A stretch of DNA of 58,619 nucleotides from Pseudoxanthomonas sp. (GTDB taxonomy: Bacteria; Pseudomonadota; Gammaproteobacteria; Xanthomonadales; Xanthomonadaceae). Shown here piece by piece: positions 1-19,488 of this stretch (positions within the stretch are counted from its first letter, which is position 1; the number at the start of each line of letters is the position of its first letter). The notes under the pieces are model-generated. The model made no database searches, was not told where the DNA came from, and saw only the letters and a list, made by a program, of their open reading frames with translations. The translations under genes and the position numbers were made by a program. Location of the stretch: NCBI RefSeq assembly GCF_024710765.1, contig NZ_JANJUE010000211.1, forward strand, positions 1-58,619. The letters are read 5' to 3'.

Positions 1-3
1 GTC

Positions 4-76
4 CCGTCCACACCCCTTCCCCCGCATGCGGGGGAAGGCTGGGATGGGGAGAACGAAGACGCAAGTTGTAGTTGTT
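4..76. repeat. Palindromic intergenic repeat, copy 1
   Basis: This segment recurs almost unchanged about 221 bases downstream. Its core at 15-38 is a perfect 24-bp palindrome of a C-run and G-run around GCATGC, and the flanks (CCGTCCACACC on the left, GAACGAAGACGC on the right) are also shared. The whole 1-404 stretch has no credible gene; the frames across it are proline/arginine-rich shadows. This looks like a dispersed intergenic repeat of the type common in Xanthomonadaceae; its function is unknown. Confidence 0.8.
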
Positions 77-147
77 CCCACGCTCGCAACATTCGACAAC
101 CCTCCGGAAATCCAACGCTACCGGCTCCGGAACCCCCCCACCCCAAA

Positions 148-171
148 CCCTCCCCCGTAAACGGGGGAGGG
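148..171. repeat. C-run/G-run inverted repeat
   Basis: Two perfect 11-base arms (CCCTCCCCCGT and ACGGGGGAGGG) flank an AA spacer. It lies midway between the two copies of the longer repeat and has the same C-run/G-run design, so it is probably a diverged member of the same family. It could act as a transcription stop or nuclease block, but there is no T tract. Confidence 0.65.
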
Positions 172-224
172 AGCGTTCGTCCCCTCTCCACGCGCGTTCC
201 GTTCAGCCCTTCCCCGCAGGCATT

Positions 225-298
225 CCGTCCACACCCCTTCCCCCGCATGCGGGGGAAGGCTGGGATGGGGGCGAACGAAGACGCGAGTTGTCGTTGTT
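225..298. repeat. Palindromic intergenic repeat, copy 2
   Basis: This is the second copy of the repeat at 4-76, in direct orientation. The palindromic core at 236-259 is identical to copy 1, and the right flank carries a few substitutions and one inserted base. The remaining bases up to the stop of the Lrp-type gene at 405 show no other feature. Confidence 0.8.
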
Positions 299-404
299 TC
301 GAGGTTCGCAACGTTCACCCCCCTCCAGACATCCCTCGCGGCCGTCGCGCGCCTCCAACCTCCCCGCAAACAGAGAAGCAAACCGTCCCCCCAATCCACC
401 CGCC

Positions 405-869
405 TCAGATCGGCAGGGAGTGACTGCGCTTCACCACCTGGCTGGGCAGATCCGTCTTGACGTTCTGGATGCCATTGGCGCGGGTGAGGTGGCGGGTCTG
501 GAAACGGCGGTAGTCATCCAGATCCTCCACCACCACGCGCAACATCGCATCGCACTCGCCCAGCATGATGTAGCACTCCATCACTTGTGGCAGGCGCTCC
601 ATCGCGGCGATGAACCGATCGATGGTGTCCGCGTCCTGGGCGGTCAGCCATACCCGGGTGAACAGTGTCTGCGGGTAGCCCACCTCCACCGGATTGACCA
701 CGGCGACATAACGCTCGATGACCCCAGCCTCTTCCAGCAGTCGCACCCGGCGCAGGCAGGGGGACGGCGACAGGCCGACCCGCTGGGCCAGTTCCGTGTT
801 CTGGATCCGCCCGTCCTCCTGCAGGGTGCGCAGGATGCGGCGATCCAGCTCGTCCAGCTTTGCAGGCAT
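405..869 (-). CDS. Lrp/AsnC family transcriptional regulator
   Basis: The 154-residue length is typical of Lrp/AsnC proteins. Residues 4-60 form the AsnC-type winged helix (LDELDRRILRTLQEDGR, then the SPSPCLRRVRLLE recognition helix), and residues 65-150 form the ligand-sensing RAM domain. These proteins are octameric/dimeric DNA binders that respond to amino acids. The start is preceded by an AGGAGG-like site (CCTCC at 873-877). The gene is divergent from a LysE/RhtB exporter and an 8+8 dyad lies between them, which suggests that this regulator controls the exporter. The effector amino acid cannot be told from sequence. Confidence 0.93.
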   Translation of the reverse strand: MPAKLDELDRRILRTLQEDGRIQNTELAQRVGLSPSPCLRRVRLLEEAGVIERYVAVVNPVEVGYPQTLFTRVWLTAQDADTIDRFIAAMERLPQVMECYIMLGECDAMLRVVVEDLDDYRRFQTRHLTRANGIQNVKTDLPSQVVKRSHSLPI

Positions 870-892
870 GAAACCTCCTTTGCCACCAAATT

Positions 893-911
893 ATTGGCAT
901 GAGATGCCAAT
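893..911. promoter_or_regulatory. Candidate Lrp-type operator
   Basis: A perfect inverted repeat ATTGGCAT-GAG-ATGCCAAT sits in an AT-rich patch between the divergent Lrp-type gene (start 869) and the LysE-type gene (start 976). The position and symmetry fit an operator for the adjacent regulator controlling both genes. Binding is an inference; no promoter elements were assigned with certainty. Confidence 0.6.
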
Positions 912-975
912 TTTGCAGAGATTACTGGAATATTCGCAACCCGATGGCGAGCCATTCTCCCTAGCATGATCCGCC

Positions 976-1587
976 ATGGACACGACCACGCTGCTGCTCT
1001 TCTCCGCCACCGTTCTACCGCTGATCGCCACGCCCGGTCCGGACATGCTGTTCATCCTCGCCCAGACCTTGGGAGGCGGCGCCGGCGCCGGACTGCGTGC
1101 GACCTTCGGGGTCTGCGCCGGCTATCTGGTTCATTCGATGCTGGCCGCGCTCGGCCTGGCCGCGCTGATTGCCGCCTCGCCGCCCCTGTTCGCGGCGCTG
1201 CGTTGGGCCGGCGTGGCCTATCTGGCCTGGCTGGCCTGGCGACTGCTCCAGTCGGCGATGAAAACGGGCGGCCTGCAGGTCCGCGGCGACCGGCATCCCG
1301 CCGAATTCCGGCGCGGTTTCCTGACTGCGGTACTCAACCCGAAGGGCATGATGATCTACTTCGCGATCCTGCCGCAGTTCATCTCCCATGGTGGTCCGGC
1401 GGCTTTGCAGGCCATCATGCTGTCGGCCACCTTCATCCTCCTGTGCGCGGCGTTCTATTCGCTACTCTGCCTCGCCATCGCGGCCGGCGGCTGGCGCAAT
1501 GATCCCGGCGAACGCCGGCGGCGCTGGATCGAAGGCGTCTCCGGCGGACTGATCGCGGTGGCGGCGGGAAAACTGGCGATTGGTTGA
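976..1587 (+). CDS. LysE/RhtB family amino acid exporter
   Basis: This 203-residue inner membrane protein has about six hydrophobic segments. The family hallmark TPGPDMLFIL is at residues 19-28 and the conserved NPKG at about 121-124. RhtB/LysE proteins export amino acids such as threonine, homoserine, leucine or lysine, driven by proton motive force. The gene is divergent from an Lrp/AsnC regulator, a common pairing in which the regulator senses the exported amino acid. A longer frame starting ten bases upstream is out of register and was ignored. The substrate is not predictable. Confidence 0.92.
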   Translation: MDTTTLLLFSATVLPLIATPGPDMLFILAQTLGGGAGAGLRATFGVCAGYLVHSMLAALGLAALIAASPPLFAALRWAGVAYLAWLAWRLLQSAMKTGGLQVRGDRHPAEFRRGFLTAVLNPKGMMIYFAILPQFISHGGPAALQAIMLSATFILLCAAFYSLLCLAIAAGGWRNDPGERRRRWIEGVSGGLIAVAAGKLAIG

Positions 1588-1665
1588 TCCACATCCGGGC
1601 CGGAGGCACCCGGCCTGCTATCGTTTGCCAGGCCCGCGATCGCGGCGGATACCGGAGGTCATCGC

Positions 1666-2349
1666 ATGCGTGGTCTGGATTTCAGCTCCTGGCAGACCGT
1701 GTTGTCGACGCTGCTTGGCCTGGCGGTGATCACCCTGATCGGCGTCGGCATCCGCCTGCTGGTGATGCAGACCATCCAGCAGCGGCGCGAACGCGAGAAC
1801 CGGCAGATCAACGAACGGCTGCGCACGCTCATCGCCGCCTACAAGACCCTGGGCGGTTCCTTCACCGGCCATCTGGCGGTGGACCCGACACACCTGCGGG
1901 ATCTGAAGATGCGCCAGGCCCGGGAACCTGCCGGGGAAGACGACGTCGCCATCGGCTCGGAGCGTTCACGCAGGATCCGCGACGCCGTGGAAGCTGCATT
2001 GTCCGACATCATCCTGCTGGGCACCGACGAGCAGGTGCGGCTGGCGGCCCGCGCCGCCACCGACATGGTGGAAGGCCGACCCGTACATACCCACGATCTG
2101 GTGACATCGCTGCGCGATTTCATCCGCGCGGCACTGGACCTGGACCCGGTGCCGCCGGGACTGACCATTCCACCGCAAGGTCCCACGCGCCCCGGCGGCG
2201 GCGGGAAACCGGGCAGGAATGACGCCACGCGCGACGACTCCCGTCAGGGCGGCGGCAAGGGCGGCAATGCCGGAGCCGGGGCCGGGGGCGCGGGAATGGG
2301 GCTGGGCGCCGGTCTGGCGCTGGGAGATGAAACCGAAACCCGGCGCTGA
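1666..2349 (+). CDS. Single-pass membrane protein with glycine-rich tail, unknown function
   Basis: The 227-residue product has one transmembrane helix at about residues 13-33. A charged, probably coiled segment follows (QQRRERENRQINERLRTLI), then a helical soluble domain to about residue 165, and a low-complexity Gly/Arg/Pro-rich tail rich in GGG and AGAG. I recognise no catalytic motif. The helical domain resembles conserved hypothetical proteins of proteobacteria with the same one-helix layout. The gene follows the exporter by 78 bases and is convergent with the next gene. Confidence 0.75.
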   Translation: MRGLDFSSWQTVLSTLLGLAVITLIGVGIRLLVMQTIQQRRERENRQINERLRTLIAAYKTLGGSFTGHLAVDPTHLRDLKMRQAREPAGEDDVAIGSERSRRIRDAVEAALSDIILLGTDEQVRLAARAATDMVEGRPVHTHDLVTSLRDFIRAALDLDPVPPGLTIPPQGPTRPGGGGKPGRNDATRDDSRQGGGKGGNAGAGAGGAGMGLGAGLALGDETETRR

Positions 2350-2373
2350 AGCCAGCAACGGTTCCGCGCACCC

Positions 2374-2943
2374 TCAGAAGGCGTCGCTGCCGGGCCGCAA
2401 CTCGATTCCCAATGCCGCGCACAACTGCTGCATTCCCTCGTCATCCCGGCTGAGCGCAATCCAGCCCGCGTAGGCATCGCCATCGGTATTCCAGTTCCAG
2501 AGCGTATAGCCGTGCTCGCGCAGGCGGTCATAGGCAACGGCCATTAAGCCAGGCACATCGACGCCGTCCAGGAAGTCCTCGTCCGCCGGATCACCACCCC
2601 AGTCGATATCGATGTTCCAGCGCGCCGCCAACTGGTTGACGCTGTCGATCAGGGATTCGCTGTCCTTCCAGTCGACGTAGAAGCCCGACGACCAGTCGAT
2701 GGCATCCTTCAACATCCACAGTGCGCCGTCCTCGTCGCCACCGGCCTCGGCCATCGCATCCCGCCAGCCGGCGAACTGGCGCAACGCGGTTTCCTCGTCG
2801 CCCGGGTTGATCAACACCAGCAGGTTCCAGATCAGGGCTTCCTGATCGCCGGTGTCGATGCCTTCTTCGTCGTCTCCCTCGGGCACGGAGAACCCGGCGT
2901 CGGCATCGAAATCGTCTTCATCGGGAAAGATCATGGGGGTCAC
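2374..2943 (-). CDS. Acidic DUF6630-like protein
   Basis: This 189-residue cytosolic protein is very acidic (an Asp/Glu-rich first 35 residues) and tryptophan-rich (WRDAMAE, WSSGFYVDWKD, WNIDIDWGG, WNWNTDG). The pattern of a small helical protein with DW/NW motifs fits the DUF6630 group seen in Xanthomonadaceae; the family name is from memory and was not searched. No enzyme motif or signal peptide is visible. The start could also be the second Met three codons later. Confidence 0.75.
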   Translation of the reverse strand: MTPMIFPDEDDFDADAGFSVPEGDDEEGIDTGDQEALIWNLLVLINPGDEETALRQFAGWRDAMAEAGGDEDGALWMLKDAIDWSSGFYVDWKDSESLIDSVNQLAARWNIDIDWGGDPADEDFLDGVDVPGLMAVAYDRLREHGYTLWNWNTDGDAYAGWIALSRDDEGMQQLCAALGIELRPGSDAF

Positions 2944-3072
2944 CTGGGTAATGTCGACGGGATCCTGCCGCGTCCCTGCCGGCGGTGGAAGGGCGGATAC
3001 CGTGCCAGCGCTTGGGGGCTGGACGCCCGGCGTTTATCCTAGGCCTCTTCCGCACCGCCTGAAACCACCATC

Positions 3073-3318
3073 ATGAGCACCGATACCCCTCCCGACCGCC
3101 TGGCTTCCGACCCGCGCAGCCCGTTCCACGATGCCGAAATCATGGAACGCGGCGTCGGCATCCGCTTCAACGGCGTCGAACGCGACAACGTCGAGGAATA
3201 CTGCGTCAGCGAAGGCTGGATCCGGGTGCCGGTGGGCAAGTCCAAGGACCGCCGTGGCAATCCGATGACCCTCAAGGTCAAGGGCGAAGTGATCGCCTAT
3301 TTCCGCGAGCAGCAGTGA
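3073..3318 (+). CDS. DUF3297 family small protein
   Basis: This 81-residue soluble protein has the compact pattern of DUF3297: LASDPRSPFHDAE near the N terminus, then GVGIRFNGVERDNVEEYC, and a terminal MTLKVKGEV segment. The length matches the family. DUF3297 proteins are widespread in proteobacteria and have no established function. The gene stands alone, with 129 bases between it and the divergent upstream gene. Confidence 0.88.
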   Translation: MSTDTPPDRLASDPRSPFHDAEIMERGVGIRFNGVERDNVEEYCVSEGWIRVPVGKSKDRRGNPMTLKVKGEVIAYFREQQ

Positions 3319-3461
3319 ATCCTCCGGACGGTGATGGATGCCCATCACCGTCCGCGCCCGGCCTGGTACGGCATGGTTCGTTCTTCCACCCCGAGGCAGC
3401 GGCAAAGCGGAGGTTCCCTCGCGGAACCTTGGGCGACCGGTCGGACCCGCTGGCGTTTGGC

Positions 3462-3899
3462 TCAGGCCGCCTGTTGATTGGCGTAGCGCTGCTTGCGATC
3501 CAGCGAAGCGCGATGGGCCGCCACCAGTCGTGACAGATCCTGCCGGCGCGAGTCGTTTTCCGGCAAGCTGGCAATCACCGGATCCCACTGGCCCGCCTTG
3601 ACCCAGCGCGAGAAACGCACATAGACGCTGTGGTTGGCGCCGTACTCGATGGGCAGGCAACGCCAGTAGGCGTCATCGCTTCCCGCCATCCACAGCACGG
3701 CTTCGACGAAACAGCGCGCGCTGGATTTGTGGCCACGCGCACGCGCGCCCAGCCGCCCGCCGAGACCTATCGCGATGTTGGCCCATTCGGCATCGCTCAG
3801 CTGCGGCACAAGTTCCGGTGGTGGGGAAACAGTCGCGTCCTGCGTCTGGGTCAACCGGCTGATCGTGGCTTCGAGACTTTCCTGGTTTTCAGTCAGCAT
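3462..3899 (-). CDS. Stand-alone DUF4096 (IS5-transposase N-terminal) domain protein
   Basis: The 145-residue product contains, at about residues 30-115, the helix-turn-helix-like N-terminal domain of IS5-type transposases: LSDAEWANI, FVEAVLWMAG, YWRCLP, VYVRFSRWVKAGQWD. The DDE nuclease part is absent and I see no terminal inverted repeats or target duplications. It is therefore not an intact insertion sequence but a short relic or a domesticated DNA-binding protein. The open frame has no disruption and codon use matches its neighbours, which favours retention. I chose the ATG at 3899 because the upstream extension of the frame is arginine/serine-rich noise. It is divergent from an RcsB-like regulator. 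Confidence 0.78.
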   Translation of the reverse strand: MLTENQESLEATISRLTQTQDATVSPPPELVPQLSDAEWANIAIGLGGRLGARARGHKSSARCFVEAVLWMAGSDDAYWRCLPIEYGANHSVYVRFSRWVKAGQWDPVIASLPENDSRRQDLSRLVAAHRASLDRKQRYANQQAA

Positions 3900-4246
3900 G
3901 ATTCGGGCTACCGTCTGTAACATGGGAGCGGCAGACCGCGGAGCCTTTCTCGCAAGCTCGCAGGATTCCCTGCGACTCCTCAGGCATCGCCGGGTCCACC
4001 GGTTTCGCAGTGTTCTTCCCGTCACAGGGCACACAACATCGGAATCGTCTGAAAAAGCGGGTTTTCTGCGCTTCGTCGCTGATGCGGGACGACAGCGGAT
4101 ACTGCCGTAAAGCGCACGTTCCGCAAGCCTGGTCACAAAATATGGGGAGGCATCAGGCCGCGAATCGGATAAGTTGCGCGGAGACACACGCCGCCGATAT
4201 AGAATGTGACTGCTTTCAGCTCTTAGGCCCCGGGGGACCACGGCAC
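3900..4246. other. Divergent intergenic region
   Basis: This 347-base gap separates the DUF4096 gene from the RcsB-like regulator. It is less GC-rich near 4130-4210 and carries a plausible sigma-70 promoter toward the regulator, annotated separately. No further gene, strong hairpin or repeat was recognised. Confidence 0.5.
4174..4203 (+). promoter_or_regulatory. Candidate promoter of the RcsB-like regulator
   Basis: A TTGCGC -35-like element at 4174-4179 and a TATAGA -10-like element at 4198-4203 are separated by 18 bases, ending 43 bases before the ATG at 4247. The -10 lies in the most AT-rich part of the gap. Assignment is by motif inspection only. Confidence 0.42.
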
Positions 4247-4882
4247 ATGACATTGAAGATCGTGCTCGCCGATGATCACCCGATCATCGTAGCCGCCGTC
4301 CGTCAGCTACTCGAACGCGCCGGCCATGAAATCGTCGCGGTCGCCAGTTCCAGTGGCGCGCTCCTCGAGGCGCTCGCCGAGCATCCCTGCGATCTGGTGA
4401 TCACCGACTTCAGCATGCCCAACGAGGACGAGGCCGACGGCCTGTCCCTGCTTGGCCTGATCCAGCGCCGCCTGCCCGACATGCCCGTGATCGTGCTGAC
4501 CATGGTCACCAATCCGGCCGTCCTGCAGTCGATTCTCGACGCGGGCGTCCGGGGCCTCATCAACAAGACCGACGCGATGACCGAACTGGCCGTCGCCGTA
4601 CCGACGATCATGCGCGGACAGCTCTACATCAGCAGGGCCACCGACCGCCTGCTGATCCAGGCCGGCAACGGAAAATCCGCACAGGCCGTACCGCTGTCAC
4701 CGCGCGAGACCGAAGTCATCCGGCTGTTCGCGTCAGGCCGATCCGTCACCGACATCGCACGCCAGCTCAACCGCAGCGTCAAGACCATCAGCACGCAGAA
4801 GCAGGAAGCCATGGCCAAGCTGGGCCTGAAGAACGATTTCGATATCTACGCGTACGCACGCGAGAAGGGCATGCTGTCCTGA
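4247..4882 (+). CDS. RcsB-like NarL/FixJ response regulator
   Basis: The 211-residue protein has a receiver domain (about 1-125; DD at 9-10, phospho-acceptor D54 in DLVITDFSMP) and a LuxR-type HTH (about 142-205; LSPRETEVIRLFASG, VKTISTQKQEAMAKLGL). The resemblance to RcsB is specific: the VIVLTM-x-TNPAVLQSILD segment, the KTDAMTEL stretch, and the LNRSVKTIS-QK recognition helix all parallel RcsB. The upstream frame extension is not protein-like, so the ATG at 4247 was chosen. The next gene, 151 bases downstream, is a BvgS/EvgS-like hybrid kinase, the likely phosphodonor. Confidence 0.9.
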   Translation: MTLKIVLADDHPIIVAAVRQLLERAGHEIVAVASSSGALLEALAEHPCDLVITDFSMPNEDEADGLSLLGLIQRRLPDMPVIVLTMVTNPAVLQSILDAGVRGLINKTDAMTELAVAVPTIMRGQLYISRATDRLLIQAGNGKSAQAVPLSPRETEVIRLFASGRSVTDIARQLNRSVKTISTQKQEAMAKLGLKNDFDIYAYAREKGMLS

Positions 4883-5033
4883 GGAATGCCGGCAGGCACC
4901 CGGCGGCGTTCGGTACGCTGTCTGCGAGATGAAGCACGCTTCATCGTCGCTTCGACATTAGGAACAATCCGATTCGAAGGCCGACAGGCCGCACCTAGGC
5001 TGACACGCATCGCTTTCGCGTGTCCGCCTTTCC

Positions 5034-9356
<4,323 letters not shown>

Positions 9357-9372
9357 CCAGCCTGCCGCATGC

Positions 9373-9395
9373 AAAAAAAGGCATCTTGCGATGCC
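9373..9395 (-). terminator. Rho-independent terminator, minus strand
   Basis: On the minus strand GGCATC-GCAA-GATGCC is followed by TTTTTTT. On the plus strand the same hairpin is preceded by the A run and has no T tail, so the kinase gene upstream is not the natural client. Confidence 0.7.
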
Positions 9396-9475
9396 AAGGG
9401 GGACTGGCGCGGCTCGACGCGCCAGAAGGAGATTGGTCGGATGCATCGCCGCGATGCGTCTGCCTGGACAGGCTA
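9373..9475 (-). ncRNA. Candidate structured small RNA with intrinsic terminator
   Basis: Read on the minus strand, four perfect hairpins occur in a row. They are GCCTG/CAGGC (9462-9473), GCATCG/CGATGC (9443-9457), CTGGCGCG/CGCGCCAG with a 6-base loop (9404-9425), and GGCATC-GCAA-GATGCC (9380-9395). The last has a GNRA-type GCAA loop and is followed at once by seven T, a textbook Rho-independent terminator on this strand only. Unpaired linkers between hairpins hold CUCCUU and CCCCCUU stretches that could pair with Shine-Dalgarno sequences. No gene on the minus strand needs this terminator. The 5' end near 9475 is inferred, and no clear sigma-70 promoter was found. Confidence 0.55.
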
Positions 9476-9686
9476 GGACATTTTCCGTGTGACGAGTTTC
9501 CACGGTTCGCACGGTCGACCCGGCCAATGTGCCCGCTCACTTTGCGTTTGTTGTTGCCACACGCCTTGTCTCGGAGTTTTCCGATTCCCGACAGTCGCCA
9601 CGCCGGCCAATCTGCCGATGCCGTCCGGTTCAACACGGAGGCAATCACCAAAGCGCGCCAGCGCGCCGCAATCGAGGCAGACTCAT

Positions 9687-10571
9687 ATGGAACAACCGAT
9701 GCTATGGGCGGACCGGGGCAGAACCCTGCGCTGTGGCGACACTCTGGAAGCATCTTCGCGTCCACACTGCCTGGCCGCATCACGCCAGGGCAACCTGGGA
9801 TTGCAGGCCCGCCGGTACTCGCTATGGGTGCAGATCCGCGGAGAATCCTGGATAGAGTCCGCCGAGGGCCGGTTCCGCCTGCGACCGGGCCAATGGATCG
9901 TGCTGGATCGCGATTCCCGCCCCATCGTGCAGGCCACGTCCCTGGGACTGTGCCTAGGCCTTTCATTCGATGGTGGCGGCTCCGCCTCCCGTCGTGCCGC
10001 CACTGACGATGCACGCGTGTATCCCGGCAGGGGGCGCCTGGACGAGGGTGAGCGGCTGGTTTTCCTGCGCCTGTGGCGTCGCGCCTGCCCGCGATCCGCG
10101 AATGCCGCCAGAAGTGGCGATGCCACGCCGTTGCTGGCGTTCATGGCGGAAATCCAGGGCGATCTGCAGCGCTATGCGCAACGGTGCCCTGGCCGCACCC
10201 GCAGCCATCGGCACCAGGTATTCGTGCGCCTGCAGCGCGCGCGCCTGTATCTCAACGGGCACCGCAACCGACGCGTACCGATGCGTGAACTCGCCCGACT
10301 GGTAAATTTCTCGCACAGTTACTTTTCGCGGACCTACACCTTCGTCTACGAAGAGCAGCCGCAGGTCACCGCCTCGCGCATCCGCCTGGCCCATGCCGCC
10401 GAACTGCTGACCAGCACGGAAGCACCGATCGGTGAGATCGCCCAGGCCTCAGGCTTCGAGAACAACTGCAGCTTCTCGCGCGCGTTTCGCGCCCGCTTCG
10501 GCGTCTCGGCGACGGACTATCGGCGACGCGAAAACGCGCACGAGGACAATTCCCGCAAACCCAATGCGTGA
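9687..10571 (+). CDS. AraC family transcriptional regulator
   Basis: The 294-residue product has an N-terminal cupin-like sensing region (about 1-140; RYSLWVQIRGESW, FRLRPGQWIVLD) and a C-terminal double HTH of AraC type (about 195-285). That domain contains MRELARLVNFSHSYFSRTYTF and IGEIAQASGFENNCSFSRAFRARFGVSATDYRR. I placed the start at the ATG at 9687, because the frame upstream is unstructured and Cys/Arg/Pro-rich. It lies 88 bases before a TonB-dependent receptor in the same direction and may control it. The ligand is unknown. Confidence 0.9.
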   Translation: MEQPMLWADRGRTLRCGDTLEASSRPHCLAASRQGNLGLQARRYSLWVQIRGESWIESAEGRFRLRPGQWIVLDRDSRPIVQATSLGLCLGLSFDGGGSASRRAATDDARVYPGRGRLDEGERLVFLRLWRRACPRSANAARSGDATPLLAFMAEIQGDLQRYAQRCPGRTRSHRHQVFVRLQRARLYLNGHRNRRVPMRELARLVNFSHSYFSRTYTFVYEEQPQVTASRIRLAHAAELLTSTEAPIGEIAQASGFENNCSFSRAFRARFGVSATDYRRRENAHEDNSRKPNA

Positions 10572-10659
10572 CCCTGGCAAGGCGATTCTGCGAATCCATC
10601 GGTAACGTTAAGAAGGCGTTTTTTTCAGCCTTTTTCAGCGTTCCCAGGAGAGCATTCGA

Positions 10660-13251
10660 ATGAAATACAAGAAGTCCCCGTCGGCCCTGCGACTCGGCGT
10701 CCTGCAGGCGTCCGTGCTGCTGGCGCTGTCTCCCGCCGCCTTCGCCCAGTCGTCCGACAACGTCTCCACGCTGGACAAGGTGGAGGTGACCGGATCGCGC
10801 ATCAAGCGGGCGGATATCGAGGGCGCCGCGCCGGTGACCGTCATCGATCGCGCGACCATCGACGCGAGCGGCCATGTTTCGGTCGCCGATCTGATGCGTG
10901 ATTCCACGTTTGGTTCGTTTGGCAGCCTGCGTCCGCAGTCCGGCAGTTCTGCACAAGCCGTGTCCACCATCGACCTGCGCGGCCTGGGTTCCGACCGCAC
11001 GCTGGTCCTCATCGACGGCCGACGCGCGCCGTACGCCCCATCCACCGGTCTGAGCGCCGACCTCAACACGATTCCGCTGGCCGCGGTGGAGCGCATCGAG
11101 ATCCTGTCTGACGGTGCCTCTGCATTGTATGGTTCCGATGCCATTGGCGGCGTGGTCAACGTCATCCTGCGCAAGGACTATGAAGGCGCCGAAGTTCGCT
11201 ATGGCAAGGGCCTGACCAAGGTGAAGGGCGGCGATACCGAGGAGGCATCCGTCCTTTTTGGCATCAGTTCCGACCGCGGAAATCTGTTGCTGGGTGCTTC
11301 GTACAGCGAACGCGGCATGGTCTATACCCGCGACCAGATCGGCGCCAATATCAAGGGTGCGTCAATCTATGGCAATAATTTCTTCTACGAGGACGGAAGT
11401 CCCGGCGGCGCCCTGCCTGGCTACGCATGCAACGACCCTGGCTTCTACAAGCTGGGCAATAATTGTGTGTATAACCACAAGGAAACCGCAGCCAATGAGG
11501 CTTCGGTGAAGAACAAGTCGTTGTTCGCCCGTGGTCAATGGCAGATCAATGACAACTGGTCGATCTATGCCAATGCCAGCTACAGCGATTCAGACAGCTT
11601 CGGCCGCTATGCACCTACTCCGGGGGCGGTTTATGTCGCAGAGGGTTCCCCCAATGATCCCAAGCCTGGCGATGGCCAGGGGGCTTACGTCTATCACCGC
11701 TACGCAGGCGCTGGCAATCGCGACACAACTGTCGACAACTCGGTCACTGACCTCACCCTCGGCTTGCAATGGCAGGCCTCCGAGCGACTGGCCGTAGACT
11801 TCGGCCTGCGCCGCAGCGACGCCAAGTTCAAGGAAACTGGTCGCGGCTACATCGTGACGCCCCTGGCAGAGCTGGCCATCGCCAACGGTCTTTATGATCT
11901 GCGCAATCCCAATGCCAATCCGGACGTCGTCAAGGGCTTCACTGCCACCATCGGCCGGGATGGCAAATATGAGATCGAGCAATTGTTCGCCGACGCTACG
12001 CTTGACCTGTTTGAAATGCGGGGCGGCAAGTCGGTGCTGGCCTTTGGACTGGAACACCGAAAGGAAACCTATGCCGATCTCTATGATTCGCTTTCCGAAG
12101 CAGGTGTGATCGCGGGTTCGGCCGGGAATTCTTCCCAAGGCGACCGAAACGTGTCCTCGGCATATGCAGAGTGGTTGTTCCCGATTACGGGCACCTTCGA
12201 TATCACCGCGGCGGCCCGCTACGACCGCTACAACGACTACGGCAACGACGTTTCGCCCAAGCTGTCGCTGCGCTGGCAGCCGCTGGATCGCCTGACTTTC
12301 CGCGCTTCGGCCGGGGAAGGGTTCCGTGCACCTCCATTGACTGATCTGTATGCCGCCCGTGCATTTTCGGCCGAGGCCGTCAAGGACTACCGCACCTGCG
12401 TCGGCATCGGCTTCACTTCCGCCCAGTGCGGCGGCGACGCCAATGGCGACCACATTGCCGATGGTGCCGAAGACAAGGCCGTGGGTTCTTACCAGGTGGA
12501 TAGCTACGCCAGTGGCAACACCGGCCTGAAATCCGAGAAGTCCAAGCAGTACAGTGTTGGCATGGCCTGGGACGCCACGGATTGGCTGAACCTGACGGTG
12601 GATTTCTATCGAATCAAAATCGATGACCGGATCCGCCTGATTTCGTATCAGGAGCTTGTTGATTTCGATAATCGCGGCATCGCGTTGCCGACCGGAACGT
12701 CCGTGAGCCGGCGACCCAACGGAGCAGTCCGTGAGATCAATACCGCCTACGCGAACGAAGGCGATCTGGACACCCGCGGCGTCGACGTCAGCCTGCGTAC
12801 TCGTTTCGCGCTTGGCAATGCCGGCCAGCTGACCAACTGGTTGCAGGTTTCGCGCGTGATCGACTACACGGTCACCGATGGCCTGGTCAAAAAGGATCGC
12901 CTGGGATGGGTCGGCCAGCCGGATACTCGCGCCAGCCTTCGCAATACCTGGACCAATGGTGATTTCAGCATCAACTGGAATATCAACTACATCGGTGATC
13001 AGCAGAACCCCACCGTGCGCCCGACGTTTGGCTTCCTGGGTGGTGATCCAAGCACGCGTGTCGGCGGCTACGCCACCAATGACGTTTCATTCAACGTGAA
13101 CATGCCCTGGAATGCCAGCGTGACCCTGGGTGCCAACAACATCGGCAATCGCTATCCGGAGTTGATCACGGTGGAAGGCCGTCCCTGGAACTTCGATCTG
13201 TACGATGCGTACGGCCGCACCGTCTATTTCCGCTACGCGCAGAAGTTCTGA
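10660..13251 (+). CDS. TonB-dependent outer membrane receptor
   Basis: The 863-residue protein has a signal peptide cleaved near AFA-Q (residues 28-30). Next come a TonB-box-like VEVTGSRIKR segment at about 41-50 and a plug domain at about 58-165 (DLRGLGSDRTLVLIDGRR, GSDAIGGVVNVILRKDYEG). A 22-strand barrel ends in Phe (VYFRYAQKF). An AGGAGA site lies nine bases before the ATG. The AraC-type gene upstream is a plausible regulator. The substrate cannot be predicted from sequence. Internal stretches are less GC-rich than most neighbours, mainly in the extracellular loops. Upstream, GAAGGC and GCC around a T-rich loop at 10612-10636 could form a weak attenuator or terminator. Confidence 0.95.
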   Translation: MKYKKSPSALRLGVLQASVLLALSPAAFAQSSDNVSTLDKVEVTGSRIKRADIEGAAPVTVIDRATIDASGHVSVADLMRDSTFGSFGSLRPQSGSSAQAVSTIDLRGLGSDRTLVLIDGRRAPYAPSTGLSADLNTIPLAAVERIEILSDGASALYGSDAIGGVVNVILRKDYEGAEVRYGKGLTKVKGGDTEEASVLFGISSDRGNLLLGASYSERGMVYTRDQIGANIKGASIYGNNFFYEDGSPGGALPGYACNDPGFYKLGNNCVYNHKETAANEASVKNKSLFARGQWQINDNWSIYANASYSDSDSFGRYAPTPGAVYVAEGSPNDPKPGDGQGAYVYHRYAGAGNRDTTVDNSVTDLTLGLQWQASERLAVDFGLRRSDAKFKETGRGYIVTPLAELAIANGLYDLRNPNANPDVVKGFTATIGRDGKYEIEQLFADATLDLFEMRGGKSVLAFGLEHRKETYADLYDSLSEAGVIAGSAGNSSQGDRNVSSAYAEWLFPITGTFDITAAARYDRYNDYGNDVSPKLSLRWQPLDRLTFRASAGEGFRAPPLTDLYAARAFSAEAVKDYRTCVGIGFTSAQCGGDANGDHIADGAEDKAVGSYQVDSYASGNTGLKSEKSKQYSVGMAWDATDWLNLTVDFYRIKIDDRIRLISYQELVDFDNRGIALPTGTSVSRRPNGAVREINTAYANEGDLDTRGVDVSLRTRFALGNAGQLTNWLQVSRVIDYTVTDGLVKKDRLGWVGQPDTRASLRNTWTNGDFSINWNINYIGDQQNPTVRPTFGFLGGDPSTRVGGYATNDVSFNVNMPWNASVTLGANNIGNRYPELITVEGRPWNFDLYDAYGRTVYFRYAQKF

Positions 13252-13292
13252 ACCAGAATGCGGTGGGAGATCAAACAGACCCACGCACGTGG

Positions 13293-13325
13293 AAAGACCC
13301 CCAGCAATGGGGGTCTTTTCTTTTG
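13293..13325 (+). terminator. Rho-independent terminator after the TonB receptor
   Basis: The 10-bp arms AAAGACCCCC and GGGGGTCTTT flank a 6-base loop and are followed by TCTTTT. It lies 42 bases past the receptor stop codon and separates that gene from the methyltransferase. Confidence 0.9.
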
Positions 13326-13347
13326 TCATCGGAGCAAAGAGGTCACC

Positions 13348-14310
13348 ATGTCGATCAGGTCCACTGGGTCACACGGGGGACATGCACGCAAACCGGCCTG
13401 GACCGATTACTGGCGGACCGGTGCCCTGCATTCCTGCCCAACCAGCTACCCGGGCAACTACGACGGCGCCATCGGCGAGTTCTGGAGGGAAGCGGCCCAG
13501 CAGCTGCCCCAGGGAGGACGCATCCTTGATGTCGCTACTGGTAACGGTGCCGTTCCCCGACTTCTGATGAGCCATGGCCGGTTGGATCTGGACATCGATG
13601 GCATCGACGCAGCTGATGTTTCCGGAATCGACGCTGCCATGGACGCTCGCATCCGTTTTCATTCCGGCATACGAATGGAAGCACTACCTTTTTCTGCTGG
13701 CCAGTTCGATGCCGCCAGCAGCCAGTTCGGAATCGAGTACGCGAACCATCCGGAGGCGCTGGAAGAAGTGTTGCGCGTGCTGAAGCCCTCGGGACAAATC
13801 CATTGGGTCATGCATCATCGCGATTCGGTCTTCACCCGCATGGCTGCACACGAAAGCGAACATCTGGCATGGGCGACCGGCACGGAAGGCATCCTCGATG
13901 CGGCAATCGCCATCGCGCCCTGGATGCTGCGTATTCGGACCGACCCGGCTCTCAAGGTACCTCTTCAGGCCAATGTGGCGAGGAACAGGTTCAACCAGGT
14001 TCAGATTGCATTGGAGCAACGGATCCGGCTTGACCATGCCGGGGCCGTGCTACAGGAGATCCGCGCCACCGCGCATGCGATTTTGCTCCAGGACAGTGAC
14101 CCGGTGCCCACCCTCATGCGCTATCGCCGGGAACTGGAATTTGCCCTGCTTCGTTGCCAGGATCTATGCGCCTGTGCCTGCGATCAGACCAGGCTGCTGA
14201 ACGTGGCCGGATGGCTAGGCAGCAAACGGCCTGCCTTGCAGGTGGAGATCACGACGCTGAGTCAGGCCGAAGGCCTGTTGGCCTGGGGACTGCGCGCAAT
14301 CCCCTCCTGA
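13348..14310 (+). CDS. Class I SAM-dependent methyltransferase
   Basis: The 320-residue product has motif I ILDVATGNGAVP at about residues 53-64, an acidic motif II region (LDIDGIDAAD), and a post-motif LEEVLRVLKPSGQIHWVMHH typical of UbiE/Ubie-like methyltransferases. The ATG at 13348 follows an AAAGAGGT ribosome site; an earlier in-frame ATG lies upstream of the terminator and was rejected. The substrate is unknown. The C-terminal 120 residues, with a CACACD cysteine stretch, match nothing I recognise. Confidence 0.85.
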   Translation: MSIRSTGSHGGHARKPAWTDYWRTGALHSCPTSYPGNYDGAIGEFWREAAQQLPQGGRILDVATGNGAVPRLLMSHGRLDLDIDGIDAADVSGIDAAMDARIRFHSGIRMEALPFSAGQFDAASSQFGIEYANHPEALEEVLRVLKPSGQIHWVMHHRDSVFTRMAAHESEHLAWATGTEGILDAAIAIAPWMLRIRTDPALKVPLQANVARNRFNQVQIALEQRIRLDHAGAVLQEIRATAHAILLQDSDPVPTLMRYRRELEFALLRCQDLCACACDQTRLLNVAGWLGSKRPALQVEITTLSQAEGLLAWGLRAIPS

Positions 14311-14344
14311 AACGCGCGGAGCACGGGAAATGTGCGGGATTCGT

Positions 14345-15607
14345 TCAACCCTCCACGCACGCGGCCGCACGCGCCAGCATCAAATCACGCTCGCGGGCAT
14401 TGCGGGTCAGTGCGGCGGCGCGCTCGAAGGCTTCGCGTGCTTCGTGTCTGCGGCCCAACTGCTCCAGCAGGTCGCCGCGTACCGCGGGCAGTTGCGGATA
14501 CTCGCGCAGCAGGGGCTCCTCGACCAGCGCGTCGACCAGGGGCAGCGCCGCGGCCGCGCCCTCGGCGCGACTGAGGGCGACGGCGCGATTGAGCTCGACC
14601 ACCGGTGAGGGCATCACGGCCGCCAGTTGTGCGTACAGGGCGGCGATGCGCGTCCAGTCGGTCTGCTCGGCACGCAATGCGCGCGCATGGCAGGCGGCGA
14701 TGGCGGCCTGGAGGGTATAGGGCAGCCGCGCGCCGCCCAGCCGGGTCGAGCGTTCCAGCGCCTGCAGCCCGCGCTGGATCTGCAGGCGATCCCAGCGTGC
14801 GCGATCCTGCTCCAGCAGCAGGATCGGGGTTCCATCGGCCGCGGTGCGGGCACGCGCCCGCGACGCCTGCAATTCCATCAGGGCCAACAGGCCATGCACC
14901 TCGGGCTCGTCCGGCACCAGCCCCGCCAGCACGCGTCCCAACCGCAAGGCTTCCTCGCACAGCGTGGGACGCATCCAGTCATCGCCGGCGGTGGCGGAGT
15001 AGCCCTCGTTGAAAATCAGGTAGAGGATTTCCAGCACCGACTCCAGGCGCTCGGCCAGTTCGCTCCGGCGCGGCACCTCGAACGGGACCTGCTTCTGCGC
15101 CAAGGTGCGCTTGGCGCGCACGATGCGCTGGGCGATGGTCGGTTCCGACTGCAGGAACGCGCGCGCGATCTCGTCGGTCGACAGCCCGCCCAGCAGCCGC
15201 AGGGTCAATGCCGCCCTGGCCTCGGTGGAGAGCACCGGATGGCAGGCGATGAACACCAGGCGCAGCAGATCGTCGCCGATGTCGTCTTCCAGCCGGTCGC
15301 TGTCGTCAGGCCTGGCCACGTCCTGTCCATCCAGTTCGTAGGCCAGTTCGTCGTGCTTGCGCGCATGCAGCTGGTGCTGGCGCAGGCGGTCGATGGCGCG
15401 ATGCTTGGCGGCGGTCATCAGCCAGGCGGCGGGGTTGTCCGGCACGCCCGATGCCGGCCAGCGTTCGAGCGCGGACACCAGTACGTCCTGGGCCATTTCC
15501 TCGGCCAGCCCGACGTCGCCCAGCATGCGGGTGAGCCGGGCGATCAGGCGCGGGGATTCCATCCGCCAGAGCGTGTCGAGGGTGCGATGCAGGTCGTGGG
15601 CAGCCAT
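14345..15607 (-). CDS. ECF42-type RNA polymerase sigma factor with TPR-like extension
   Basis: The 420-residue protein has sigma region 2 (about 15-85; LARLTRMLGDVGLAEEMAQD, NPAAWLMTAAKHRAIDRLR) and region 4 (about 125-180; LTLRLLGGLSTDEIARAFL, IAQRIVRAKRTL). A long helical C-terminal extension from about residue 190 carries a TPR-like segment. The length and architecture are those of the ECF42 group, known to sit next to YCII/DGPF-domain genes as here. It is the last gene of a seven-gene operon. The ATG at 15607 was preferred over a GTG six codons earlier; neither has a strong ribosome site. No anti-sigma factor gene is present. Confidence 0.9.
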   Translation of the reverse strand: MAAHDLHRTLDTLWRMESPRLIARLTRMLGDVGLAEEMAQDVLVSALERWPASGVPDNPAAWLMTAAKHRAIDRLRQHQLHARKHDELAYELDGQDVARPDDSDRLEDDIGDDLLRLVFIACHPVLSTEARAALTLRLLGGLSTDEIARAFLQSEPTIAQRIVRAKRTLAQKQVPFEVPRRSELAERLESVLEILYLIFNEGYSATAGDDWMRPTLCEEALRLGRVLAGLVPDEPEVHGLLALMELQASRARARTAADGTPILLLEQDRARWDRLQIQRGLQALERSTRLGGARLPYTLQAAIAACHARALRAEQTDWTRIAALYAQLAAVMPSPVVELNRAVALSRAEGAAAALPLVDALVEEPLLREYPQLPAVRGDLLEQLGRRHEAREAFERAAALTRNARERDLMLARAAACVEG

Positions 15608-15747
15608 GACCGGCGATCTGAACACCGGCCGGCGGGACGCGCAAGCTGAATGGCGGAGACCTCATCGACGTACCCCTCCCGTCCAGGTCCGCGGGCGATT
15701 CGCCATCCATGGGCGCGGCCGTCCGGAAGCCGCTCGGTCACCGGCGC

Positions 15748-16122
15748 CTATCCATCCAGTTCGAAGTAATGCAGGGGGCGGATTTCGATGCCCCAGCCCC
15801 ATGCCTCTCCCGCATCCAGCCGAGTGGTCGGATGCAGCATCGCGATCCGGATGGCGTGTTCGATGTCGTCCGCCTCGATCAGGAACGCGCTGCCGATCCG
15901 GGCCGGCCCGGGGGCAAAGGGTCCGCTGACGACCTGCACGGTCTCGCCGACCCGGCGCAGGCTGTGGCTCTGGCGGCCGACACCGGCGTCCAGGATGACC
16001 TGGCCGCTGCCATACAGTTCCTCCAGGTGCGGCTGGCATTGCCGCATGGCCTGCTCGACCTGTTCACTCGGGCATGCATCCATCCGGTCCGGGTCGAAAT
16101 AGCCAAGGCAGAGATACTTCAT
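15748..16122 (-). CDS. YCII-related protein, SGPF variant
   Basis: This 124-residue soluble protein has the YCII fold signature: MKYLCLGYFDP at the start, a central VVSGPFAPG where most relatives have DGPF, and a terminal EIRPLHYFELDG. YCII-like proteins are small dimeric ferredoxin-fold proteins of poorly known function, and the DGPF subgroup is genetically linked to ECF42 sigma factors. It is separated from the sigma gene by 140 bases and from the upstream gene by 18. Confidence 0.88.
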   Translation of the reverse strand: MKYLCLGYFDPDRMDACPSEQVEQAMRQCQPHLEELYGSGQVILDAGVGRQSHSLRRVGETVQVVSGPFAPGPARIGSAFLIEADDIEHAIRIAMLHPTTRLDAGEAWGWGIEIRPLHYFELDG

Positions 16123-16140
16123 CGCGGGCGGCTCCCGGGG

Positions 16141-16806
16141 TCAGCGCAGTGGACCGCGCGCGCCATGCAGGCGCTCGAACTTCAGGTGCACCACGGCGGG
16201 TGTCGCCACCGTGCGCACCAGCGACAGGCCGTGCAGGTCATCACCCAGTTGGTCAAACAGGCGCTCACCGCCGCCCAGCAGGATCGGCACCAGATGAAGC
16301 TCCATCTCGTCCACCAGTCCGGCGGCCAGATACTGCCGCGCCGCGTGCGCGCCGCCTGCCAGGGCGACATCGCGTCCGCCCGCAGCCGCGCGCGCCTGTT
16401 CGAGCGCGACATGGATGCCCTCGGTGACGAAATGAAAGCGGGTATCTCCGAGAACCAGCGGCGATCTCGGGTGCCGCGTCAGCACGAATACCGGGTGGTG
16501 GAAGGGCGGCTCATCGCCCCACCAGCCATTCCAGGGTTCGCTCGTGCTCCATCCCCCCGGATGCCCGCCGAACATGTTGCGCCCCATCACCGTGGCGCCG
16601 ATGTTGACGAGCGACTCCTCCATCACCGCCGTGCTGGCGTTGATCTCACCGCCTTCCATGCCGTGCGCGCCGCGCCAGGCCGCCAGCGCGGTGGCCCAAT
16701 GGTGCAGGCGCTCGCCGCCGATGCCCAGGGGATGCCGGACGCTCTGTTCCGGTCCGGCGACAAAGCCGTCCAGCGATATCGAAATGCGGAAACGCAGGCG
16801 CGACAT
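16141..16806 (-). CDS. RibD/DHFR-fold family protein (1)
   Basis: The 221-residue product matches the RibD C-terminal/dihydrofolate-reductase-like superfamily (YyaP/YwjB type): ISISLDGFVAG at the N terminus, an ATVMGRNMFGG dinucleotide-binding segment near residues 70-80, DVALAGGAHAARQYLAAGLVDEMELHLVP, and LLGGGERLF. It likely binds NADPH and reduces an unknown substrate. The gap to the next cistron upstream is 21 bases, and its position inside the ECF42 operon implies coexpression. Confidence 0.88.
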   Translation of the reverse strand: MSRLRFRISISLDGFVAGPEQSVRHPLGIGGERLHHWATALAAWRGAHGMEGGEINASTAVMEESLVNIGATVMGRNMFGGHPGGWSTSEPWNGWWGDEPPFHHPVFVLTRHPRSPLVLGDTRFHFVTEGIHVALEQARAAAGGRDVALAGGAHAARQYLAAGLVDEMELHLVPILLGGGERLFDQLGDDLHGLSLVRTVATPAVVHLKFERLHGARGPLR

Positions 16807-16827
16807 GGCGTTCTCCAGGTGTCGTCG

Positions 16828-17493
16828 TCAGTCCAGGCCCGCCGCGATCCGGCGCTGGCGTTCCAGTTCCTCGGCCGAGGGTTCGTCCAGCCCGAAGTAG
16901 CCATAGTCCAGGCCGCCTTCGATGCGGTAGCACTGCCGCACCACGCCGGTATCGAAGGCACGCGACGTCTGCAGTTTCAGCGCCGCCGGGACGGTGCCAT
17001 CGGCGAACAGGCGCTTGCCTTCCGCCAGCATCACCGGGAACCACCACAGCTGCAGTTCGTCGATCAGGTTTTCCCGCAGCAACGTCTGCACCAGATTGCC
17101 GCTGCCGTGCACCTGCAGTTCCTGGCCGTGCTGGCGCTTCAGCTGGCGGATGTCGGCCAGCACGTCGGGCCCGAGCCGCTGGCTGCCTGCCCAGGCCAAG
17201 GTATCGAGGGTGCGGGTGGCGACATACTTGGGAATCCGATTGAACCGCGCCGCGATCGGATCCTCGTCGCCGAGGTGGGGCCAGTGGGCCGCGAACATCT
17301 CGTAGGTCCGCCGTCCCAACAGCAGCGCATCGAGTTCGTCCATGCTGCCGTTGATCAGCCCGAGCATGGCGTCGTCGAAGTACGGAGCGGCCCAGCCGCC
17401 GTGGCGGAAGCCGCCGCTGCGATCCTCGTCCGGACCGCCGGGCGCCTGCACCACGCCGTCCAGGCTCAGGAAGGCGGTGACGACGAGTTTCAC
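16828..17493 (-). CDS. RibD/DHFR-fold family protein (2)
   Basis: This 221-residue paralogue-like protein has the same superfamily marks (VVTAFLSLDGVVQAPGG, LLLGRRTYEMFAAHWP, LQVHGSGNLVQTLL, LIDELQLWWFPV, GKRLFADG). I assign a GTG start at 17493 whose GTGA overlaps the TGA stop of the upstream VOC gene, indicating translational coupling; longer in-frame starts run inside that gene. It probably uses NADPH; the substrate is unknown. Confidence 0.87.
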   Translation of the reverse strand: MKLVVTAFLSLDGVVQAPGGPDEDRSGGFRHGGWAAPYFDDAMLGLINGSMDELDALLLGRRTYEMFAAHWPHLGDEDPIAARFNRIPKYVATRTLDTLAWAGSQRLGPDVLADIRQLKRQHGQELQVHGSGNLVQTLLRENLIDELQLWWFPVMLAEGKRLFADGTVPAALKLQTSRAFDTGVVRQCYRIEGGLDYGYFGLDEPSAEELERQRRIAAGLD

Positions 17494-17921
17494 GACACCT
17501 GCTCCTGGGCCTGCTCCTGCTCCTGCATCGCAGCCATGTCCATGTACACGACTTCCCACAGGTGGCCGTCCGGATCCTCGAAACTGCGCTGGTACATGAA
17601 CCCGTGATCCTGCGGCTCGCGCGGCTGGCGGCCACCGGCGGCGATCGCCGCATCGGCCAGCTTGTCCACCCCGGCGCGATCGTCCGCGGACAGGCACAGG
17701 ATGGCCTGGGCATGCGTGCCCGGATCGCTCAACGCCTTGTCGGTGAAGCCCTGGAAGAACTCCCGGGTCAGCAGCATCACGTAGATGGTGTCGCTGATCA
17801 CCAGGCAGGCGCCCTGCTCGTTGGTGAACTGCGGGTTGAAGTGATAGCCGAGGCCTTCATAGAAGGCTTTCGAGCGGGCCATATCGGAGACGGCGATATT
17901 GACGAAGATTTGCGTGGGCAT
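17490..17921 (-). CDS. VOC (glyoxalase/bleomycin-resistance fold) protein
   Basis: The 143-residue product shows the paired beta-alpha-beta-beta-beta modules of the vicinal oxygen chelate family: IFVNIAVSDMARSKAFYEGLGY at the start and DHGFMYQRSFEDPDGHLWEVVYMD near the end, with putative metal-ligand Glu in the last strand. The C terminus is a short Gln/Glu run. The stop overlaps the GTG start of the next gene. Many such proteins accompany ECF42 sigma factors; the substrate is unknown. Confidence 0.9.
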   Translation of the reverse strand: MPTQIFVNIAVSDMARSKAFYEGLGYHFNPQFTNEQGACLVISDTIYVMLLTREFFQGFTDKALSDPGTHAQAILCLSADDRAGVDKLADAAIAAGGRQPREPQDHGFMYQRSFEDPDGHLWEVVYMDMAAMQEQEQAQEQVS

Positions 17922-17975
17922 CGGAATGTTCCTTGTCGTCGAAGGGGTGATGGGACAGCGTCCGGCGAGGCCGGC

Positions 17976-18383
17976 TCAGATACAGTTGATCATCCAGCGC
18001 ACGCCATGGCGATCGGCCAGAATTCCGTAGCGCCGTGCCCAGAAGGTCTGCTGCAACGGCATCTCGACGTCCTGCGCACCTTCGGACAATGCCGAGTACA
18101 GCGACTCGGCCTGCTCAAGATCGTCCAGATCGATCACGACATGGGCGCCGATGACGCCCTGGTAGGGGTGATCGGGCGTGGCATCGGTGCCCATCAGGCT
18201 GAACGCGCCGACATCCACGCGCCCGTGCAGGATCCGCGTCTTGAGTTCGTCCGGAAGGTCTTCGCAACCAGGGGTATCACCGAAGCTCTGCATCGCGACC
18301 ACCTGGCCGCCGAGCAGTTCGGCGTACCAGGTCAGGGCCTGGCGGCAATCGCCGTTGAAGCTGAGATAGTGCTTGAGACGCAT
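17976..18383 (-). CDS. PhnB-like VOC protein
   Basis: The 135-residue product fits the PhnB/YjdN-like branch of the VOC family: HYLSFNGDCRQALTWYAELLGG at the start, a central ILHGRVDVGAFSLMGTD, and the terminal ARRYGILADRHGVRWMINC. The function of this branch is not established. It lies 54 bases upstream of the other VOC gene and 45 downstream of the operon's first gene. Confidence 0.9.
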   Translation of the reverse strand: MRLKHYLSFNGDCRQALTWYAELLGGQVVAMQSFGDTPGCEDLPDELKTRILHGRVDVGAFSLMGTDATPDHPYQGVIGAHVVIDLDDLEQAESLYSALSEGAQDVEMPLQQTFWARRYGILADRHGVRWMINCI

Positions 18384-18428
18384 GGAAAAATTCCTTTTCG
18401 CGGGGTGGGTGTCGGGAAGGGAGATTGG

Positions 18429-18845
18429 TTACGGGTTGCCGAGGCGCGCGGCCAGGCGTTCTTCCCGTTCGCGCAGTTCCGGCGTCAGTGCGGGACCGAA
18501 ATCGTCCAGTTCGAAGAACGGGCGAATCTCGACCTCGGCGCCACCGCCGAAGGGCGCGCGCTTGAGCCATTCGATGGCTTCATCCAGCGAACGCACCTGC
18601 CAGATCCAGAAGCCGGCGATCAGCTCCTTGGTCTCGGCGAACGGGCCGTCGATGACCGTGCGCTGCTTGTCGTCGAAGCGCACGCGCGCGGCGTGCGAGG
18701 TCGGGCGCAGGCCCTCGCCGGCCAGCATGACCCCGGCGTTGACCAGTTCCTCGTTGTAGCGGGTCATGTCATCCAGTTGCTGCTGGGTGGGCATCACGCC
18801 GGCTTCGGTGTCGGCATCGGCTTTCACGAACACAATCACTTTCAT
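18429..18845 (-). CDS. YCII-related DGPF-domain protein, first gene of the ECF42 operon
   Basis: The 138-residue protein carries the name-giving motif in VIDGPFAETKELIAGFW (about residues 65-81), followed by EIRPFFELDDF. The start ATG at 18845 follows a GAGGAG-type site, and the frame upstream is noise. DGPF proteins are the most constant partners of ECF42 sigma factors. It heads the seven-gene operon, with a matching promoter 67-93 bases upstream. Confidence 0.92.
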   Translation of the reverse strand: MKVIVFVKADADTEAGVMPTQQQLDDMTRYNEELVNAGVMLAGEGLRPTSHAARVRFDDKQRTVIDGPFAETKELIAGFWIWQVRSLDEAIEWLKRAPFGGGAEVEIRPFFELDDFGPALTPELREREERLAARLGNP

Positions 18846-18911
18846 GTCGTACTCCTCGGATGGGGTGGCGGGCAGTCTCCGGCGGGCGGAGCATCGCTGC
18901 TTACTGGGTAC

Positions 18912-18938
18912 GACGGACGTGAAGGGCCGGGATCGACA
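18912..18938 (-). promoter_or_regulatory. Candidate ECF42 promoter
   Basis: On the minus strand TGTCGA (18938-18933) is followed after 17 bases by CGTC (18915-18912). Reported ECF42 targets carry TGTCGA at -35 and CGA/TC at -10, so both boxes and the spacing fit. It points into the DGPF gene starting at 18845. The reference motif is recalled, not searched. Confidence 0.68.
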
Positions 18939-19092
18939 GCCCCCGCGAAATTTTTTTCGCCGGGCCGGAGAGGCCATTCTGGTGGAAGCGATCTCGGCGC
19001 CTGCGACCGGGCCGGGGGAAGATGCCTGCCCGGCCGGGATGCGGCATCATGCGCGCTCCGGCGGGCGTCCCCCGTCCCTCCTGGAGCAAGGC

Positions 19093-19470
19093 ATGCAATA
19101 CCTGTTGCTGGTCTATACCGATGACACCCTGCTGGAAACCCTGCCCGCGACCGAATATGACCGCCTGATGCGTGGCTGCCTGAACCACGCCGACGAGCTG
19201 AAGCAGGCGGGCACCCTGATTGCCTGCCAGCAGTTGGAACCGGCGCGGACCGCGCGTTCGCTGCGGGTCCGCAACGGCCAGTCGGCGATCACCGATGGTC
19301 CGTTCGCGGAAACCAAGGAAGTGCTGGCCGGTTTCAACCTGATCGAAGCCGACAGCCTGGACGAGGCCGTGCGCATCGCCCACGAGTTTCCGTGGTCGCG
19401 GTTCGGCTGCATCGAGGTGCGGCCGGTGCACGACATGGACGTGGAACGGCGGCGGGTCGGCCTGACCTGA
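19093..19470 (+). CDS. YCII-related DGPF-domain protein, divergent copy
   Basis: This 125-residue paralogue of the first operon gene has ITDGPFAETKEVLAGFNLI at about residues 61-79 and IEVRPVHDMD near the end. The ATG at 19093 is preceded by CTGGAG. It is transcribed away from the ECF42 operon with 247 bases between the two starts. I see no TGTCGA box on its own strand, so its control may differ. Confidence 0.9.
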   Translation: MQYLLLVYTDDTLLETLPATEYDRLMRGCLNHADELKQAGTLIACQQLEPARTARSLRVRNGQSAITDGPFAETKEVLAGFNLIEADSLDEAVRIAHEFPWSRFGCIEVRPVHDMDVERRRVGLT

Positions 19471-19488
19471 GCAGCGCGCCCGTGCGGC

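Follow-up and report, generated by a model that had tools for sequence, protein, structure and literature searches.

Two classes of described elements offer themselves for comparison with hairpins that lie between bacterial genes: the orphan intrinsic terminators at the ends of antisense or divergent transcripts, and the RpoE-dependent small RNAs of enterobacteria. A third system is the small RNA sX13 of Xanthomonas (Rfam family RF02232), which carries 4C/5C motifs in three apical loops and is conserved in other Xanthomonadaceae (PMC3771888).

Here, a stretch of 58,619 nucleotides from Pseudoxanthomonas sp., referred to as the window, was analyzed with respect to a group of four hairpins for which a preliminary description had proposed a regulatory RNA resembling sX13 on the minus strand. 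The genome contains its own sX13 elsewhere (G000:C431:4025-4140; 93.6 bits to the RF02232 model with a gathering score of 50), and the same model yielded no match in 9250-9750 up to an E value of 5. The sX9 and sX12 models gave no match in the genome, and in the case of sX9 no control genome matched either, which leaves this negative with little weight. Rfam yielded no match at the gathering score in the whole window, and the sole match in 9250-9750 up to an E value of 5 was located on the plus strand inside the kinase gene, with 16.2 bits versus a gathering score of 50. Moreover, no report of an RNA at this stretch was recognized in literature listings that give the beginnings of abstracts.

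Genetic organization of the hairpin stretch

The hairpins lie 3' of a gene for a BvgS-like kinase and upstream of a gene for an AraC regulator, both encoded on the plus strand (Table 1); this placement, taken from the preliminary description, was borne out by the annotation of ORFs and domains. The underlying ORF list comprises 41 ORFs of at least 80 codons in the window that were chosen by codon-position GC. On this list the earlier statement that no minus-strand gene needs the terminator holds as well, since the first minus-strand gene encountered to the right, 14345-15625, is located behind three plus-strand genes. A stem-finding script detected exactly the four perfect stems that had been listed, with 4, 6, 8 and 6 pairs, and also the words CUCCUU and CCCCCUU were present as described in the linkers between the minus-strand stems. 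Likewise, the last stem has the GCAA loop, and a run of seven U comes after it on the minus strand but not on the plus strand.

Table 1. Coordinates of the features in and around the hairpin stretch of the window
Feature	Position	Strand	Remarks
BvgS-like hybrid histidine kinase	5034..9356	+	upstream neighbour; two SBP_bac_3 stretches, PAS, HisKA, HATPase, receiver
35-codon ORF spanning the hairpin region	9369-9476	+	contains the internal AAGGAG-N9-ATG
Predicted intrinsic terminator GGCAUC-GCAA-GAUGCC, then U7	9373..9395	-	stem 9380-9395 (6 bp), U7 at 9379-9373
8-bp hairpin, loop of 6 (UCGAGC)	9404..9425	-	most stable of the four, -14.7 kcal/mol alone
AAGGAG-N9-ATG with 11-codon ORF	9426..9476	+	rival reading; ends with TAG 9474-9476; in frame with the 35-codon ORF
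6-bp hairpin, loop of 3 (CGG)	9443..9457	-	perfect 7-1-7 palindrome in the DNA; longer on the plus strand
4-bp hairpin, loop of 4 (GUCC)	9462..9473	-	from the stem-finding script
RpoE-like promoter-like site GGAAACT-N15-GTCCTA	9474..9501	-	weak, chosen after the fact; just before the first hairpin
AraC-family regulator	9687..10571	+	downstream neighbour

The hairpins at 9373-9475 are clustered beyond chance. One of 2000 dinucleotide shuffles of this stretch attained at least 24 hairpin pairs, as did 8 of the 2926 stretches taken by sliding along the window, some of these stretches perhaps overlapping 9373-9475. At least four stems were present in 77 of 2000 shuffles, so that the number of stems is less unusual than the pair count. 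The folding energy of the minus strand is moderately low, with -38.8 and z -2.10 for 9371-9476 (9 of 200 shuffles as low) and z -2.11 for 9368-9480 (5 of 200). It is not low for the GC-rich window, where an energy as low or lower was obtained for 1325 of 2342 slides. Additionally, the four-hairpin fold does not dominate, as it competes with one in which the hairpins 9443-9457 and 9380-9395 pair their arms with each other, and the ensemble probability of the pairs of these two hairpins is 0.21-0.24.

With a strict rule that demands at least six Watson-Crick pairs, a loop of 3-8 nucleotides and directly thereafter T6 or more, the terminator 9373..9395 is unique across both strands of the 58.6-kb window, and any such terminator occurred in 4 of 200 shuffles of the window. 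This rule misses less perfect terminators, for instance the strong terminator-like hairpin of 13 pairs at 13291-13320 (plus strand) that is located directly behind the TonB receptor gene 10660-13251. A looser rule detected nine terminator-like sites in 1-20000 versus 9.9 expected from shuffles, which was counted against the terminator reading. The missing T run on the plus strand after the stem was counted in its favour, as was the occurrence of the identical 22-nt hairpin with T6 between two same-strand genes in two viral contigs sharing that stretch, where it is positioned as an ordinary terminator would be. As far as the sequence signal goes, the Rho-independent terminator expected of a small RNA is present, and so are a perfect GC-rich stem, a short loop, a U run and a strand without a gene, as expected of an orphan terminator. 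These signals support an intrinsic terminator on the minus strand to which no gene belongs, which makes a short minus-strand transcript plausible.

Comparison with related genomes

Named relatives, retrieved by means of the AraC protein, belong mainly to Pseudoxanthomonas and Luteimonas. The two closest, P. beigongshangi (L018) and Pseudoxanthomonas sp. z9 (L019), share 79-80% identity in AraC and 63% in the kinase end with the window, and a third relative (L116) shares 45% and 50%, respectively; the order of the kinase and araC genes is the same in all three. In the orthologous gaps of the two closest relatives the stems and linkers are absent, and the hairpins fall into alignment gaps or unrelated sequence, while the araC-proximal leader is conserved, with 77% over 9523-9649 in P. 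beigongshangi and 72% over 9497-9658 in strain z9. The third relative has a shorter spacer that contains neither the hairpins nor a terminator on either strand. The preliminary description had named stems that are not conserved in relatives, or that lack compensatory changes, as speaking against a regulatory RNA; at this distance the stems are absent from all three syntenic gaps, and a comparison of the three loci revealed no homologues to align and no compensatory changes.

With respect to the terminator, P. beigongshangi carries T6 behind a weak hairpin of six pairs, three of them G-U, at the corresponding minus-strand position, which was counted for the terminator reading. The spacer of strain z9 is devoid of a minus-strand terminator and was counted, together with that of L116, against it. 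A minus-strand terminator was likewise not detected within 610 bases before araC in 16 other AraC loci (L020-L035), the upstream ORFs of which do not look like the kinase when judged by eye.

A DNA search with 9368-9520 matched 16 of 198 family genomes at E <=0.01, the own genome included, and apart from the window itself these matches were pieces of only 19-37 query bases. With 9357-9690, 25 of 38 genus genomes were matched at E <=0.1, again including the own genome; the only other matches of more than 100 bases, in P. beigongshangi and strain z9, extend over the araC leader without including the hairpins. A covariance model built from the single sequence, entered twice, gave matches in 31 of 395 family genomes at E <=0.5 and in 30 of 38 genus genomes at E <=5, the own genome being included in both counts, and the best non-self match scored 29.5 bits (E 4e-4, L096) versus 141.1 for the window. 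From the 46 non-self loci, 11 high-scoring ones were chosen for alignment, a partial match of 21.7 bits (L073) not being among them; of the ten alignments obtained and inspected, none keeps the four stems and the U7 tail. The second-best match (L097) keeps two stems; it starts within the end of a long ORF and passes the stop codon into a gap with another terminator-like hairpin. The covariance search across Xanthomonadaceae that had been suggested as a check yielded no convincing homologue in the 395 family and 38 genus genomes, and a search of plasmids provided no match.

Repeats upstream of the araC gene

The araC leader contains the inverted repeat TCGGA-N4-TCCGATTC at 9571-9587 (plus strand), which is kept in all four kinase-linked loci, namely the window, L018 (2886-2902), L019 (2885-2901) and L116 (2559-2575), and the core of which was found nowhere in L020-L035. 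A copy with one mismatch is located upstream of the kinase gene at 4959-4975 (plus strand). In the genome, 13 matches with at most one mismatch were counted, 4 of them exact. Outside the window, the genomic context was inspected for the two one-mismatch copies in contig C71 only (G000:C71:2512-2528 and 12567-12583). One of them (L150 1013) precedes an apparent fimbrial chaperone-usher operon with an ORF from 1095, and the other is located at L150 11068; a second hybrid kinase gene is present on this same stretch, the gene names being assigned by eye. The inverted repeat may represent the site of a BvgA-like regulator of the LuxR/FixJ type, perhaps the product of 4244-4882. Moreover, the direct repeat CCGGCCAATSTGCC occurs before araC at 9520-9533 and 9603-9616 (plus strand), with the copies 83 bp or about eight helical turns apart; the second copy is kept in L018 (no mismatch) and L019 (one mismatch) and the first is not, and the two are possibly sites of an AraC-family protein. 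The palindrome GCATC-N-GATGC was rejected as an operator because it is common, with 123 occurrences in the genome.

Interpretation of the hairpin stretch

The best of the readings weighed is a lineage-specific minus-strand terminator that would end a short antisense or divergent transcript, a proposal made here tentatively and held to be nearly an even matter. Observed are the terminator signal in the sequence, its position on a strand without a gene, and hairpins that the three relatives lack. RNA polymerase transcribing the minus strand would start within or upstream of the araC regulatory region and would be stopped at 9373, which would yield a short structured RNA and spare the kinase gene antisense transcription. 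Should transcription of the plus strand read through from the kinase gene into araC, the whole of this RNA would be complementary to the intercistronic stretch, and any effect would therefore most likely be exerted in cis.

The hairpins could also be devoid of function. The palindromes and the A-run would then belong to rapidly changing spacer DNA and would perhaps have originated by local duplication and template switching. The hairpins fall largely into alignment gaps amid indels while part of the araC leader is conserved, and their folding energy is ordinary for the window, both of which suit this explanation; however, 24 perfect hairpin pairs in one of 2000 shuffles, and the rarity of a perfect hairpin with T6 or more immediately behind it, argue against it, and it is regarded as rather unlikely, though not negligible.

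Somewhat less probable still is a species-specific, trans-acting small RNA of about 100 nt from the minus strand, whose CUCCUU and CCCCCUU linkers would mask ribosome sites. Four hairpins and a terminator in intergenic DNA are consistent with such an RNA, and the promoter-like site would start it just before the first hairpin. The search pattern for this site included the RpoE -35 word, as given in PMC8103513, together with the -10 word. The pattern matched once, at 9474..9501, and 5 of 100 shuffles held at least one match; a more general RpoE pattern does not match there. The site agrees with 9 of 13 consensus positions, a value shared by 77 entries in the window in which 9474..9501 is counted twice, and in an alignment judged by eye it is not kept in L018 and L019. 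No sigma-70 promoter was matched on the minus strand before the hairpins, and the want of a convincing minus-strand promoter in these searches was counted against the terminator reading. The pairing of the linkers with gene starts was calculated for 37 of the 41 ORF starts of the window, with four small ORFs dropped and three starts set by hand. Shuffled linkers were at least as good in 105 of 200 and 186 of 200 cases for the mean and in 96 of 200 and 45 of 200 cases for the best pairing, and the suggested pairing with Shine-Dalgarno sites did not show up as an excess. The best partners of CCCCCUU are a methyltransferase and a response-regulator gene (-17.7 and -16.8 kcal/mol), which speaks for this RNA insofar as both belong to the same neighbourhood, though the values are within chance. 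Against it stand the absence from the syntenic gaps of three relatives, the lack of a convincing homologue by DNA and covariance searches and of an Rfam match, target pairing no better than that of shuffled linkers, and the low ensemble probability of two of the four hairpins. Of the regulatory RNA proposed earlier, the short transcript is made plausible by the geneless terminator, but the C-rich small RNA is not supported, given its absence in three relatives, the missing homologue and the missing pairing excess.

An intercistronic element of the plus strand, in which the hairpins of the spacer would stabilize or separate the kinase and araC messages and a short leader ORF would follow AAGGAG, appears improbable. 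Both flanking genes lie on this strand, which folds more stably (-46.0, z -2.49, versus -38.8, z -2.10) and on which the hairpin 9443-9457 is longer. The better fold would fit a plus-strand role or none and was counted against the minus-strand terminator. The AAGGAG-N9-ATG with its 11-codon ORF and the enclosing 35-codon ORF point in the same direction; AAGGAG-N4-10-ATG occurs three times in the window, once at the start of ORF 405-869 (minus strand). Read on the plus strand, the words CUCCUU and CCCCCUU become AAGGAG and AAGGGGG. Taken together with the weak promoter-like site, the pairing without excess and the better plus-strand fold, this leaves, apart from the terminator, little reason in the sequence to prefer a minus-strand RNA. 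However, the plus strand contains no U run, the 35-codon ORF displays weak codon-position GC (0.69 in third and 0.60 in second positions), and neither this ORF, by eye in the alignment, nor the hairpins are present in the relatives.

Quite improbable, too, is a lineage-specific minus-strand RNA with two exclusive folds that would switch, by means of the interchangeable arms of 9443-9457 and the terminator hairpin, between a terminated short form and a read-through antisense RNA into the kinase gene. In this way the kinase would come under an antisense control that depends on the state of the araC regulatory region.

If the stretch is transcribed, it would provide a young, species-specific small or antisense RNA inside a BvgS-like signalling cluster and a case for the origin of such RNAs between regulator genes. 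If it is not, it would illustrate that a regulatory RNA does not follow from hairpins and a T run in a single genome, and that 'anti-Shine-Dalgarno' linkers can be nothing more than the complement of words on the opposite strand that resemble Shine-Dalgarno sites.

Comparison with known systems

Like sX13, which has about 100-115 nt, the stretch combines several stable hairpins with C-rich unpaired motifs. In contrast to the apical-loop motifs of sX13 (PMC3771888), its C runs are located in the linkers, the loops GUCC, CGG, UCGAGC and GCAA contain at most two C in a row, and a convincing full match was found only in the window itself. With the loops not C-rich and the genome's own sX13 located elsewhere, the sX13-like design suggested earlier amounts to a superficial likeness. 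The promoter-like site resembles those of the RpoE-dependent small RNAs of enterobacteria by a -35 word beginning with GGAA and by GTC in the -10 region, before a short structured RNA, and differs from them by its partial agreement with the consensus, its many equals in the window and its lack of conservation. From plain orphan terminators the site 9373..9395 is distinguished by the three further hairpins that precede it; like the orphan terminators that end antisense or divergent transcripts, it is located on a strand without a gene and faces the 3' end of a gene on the opposite strand.
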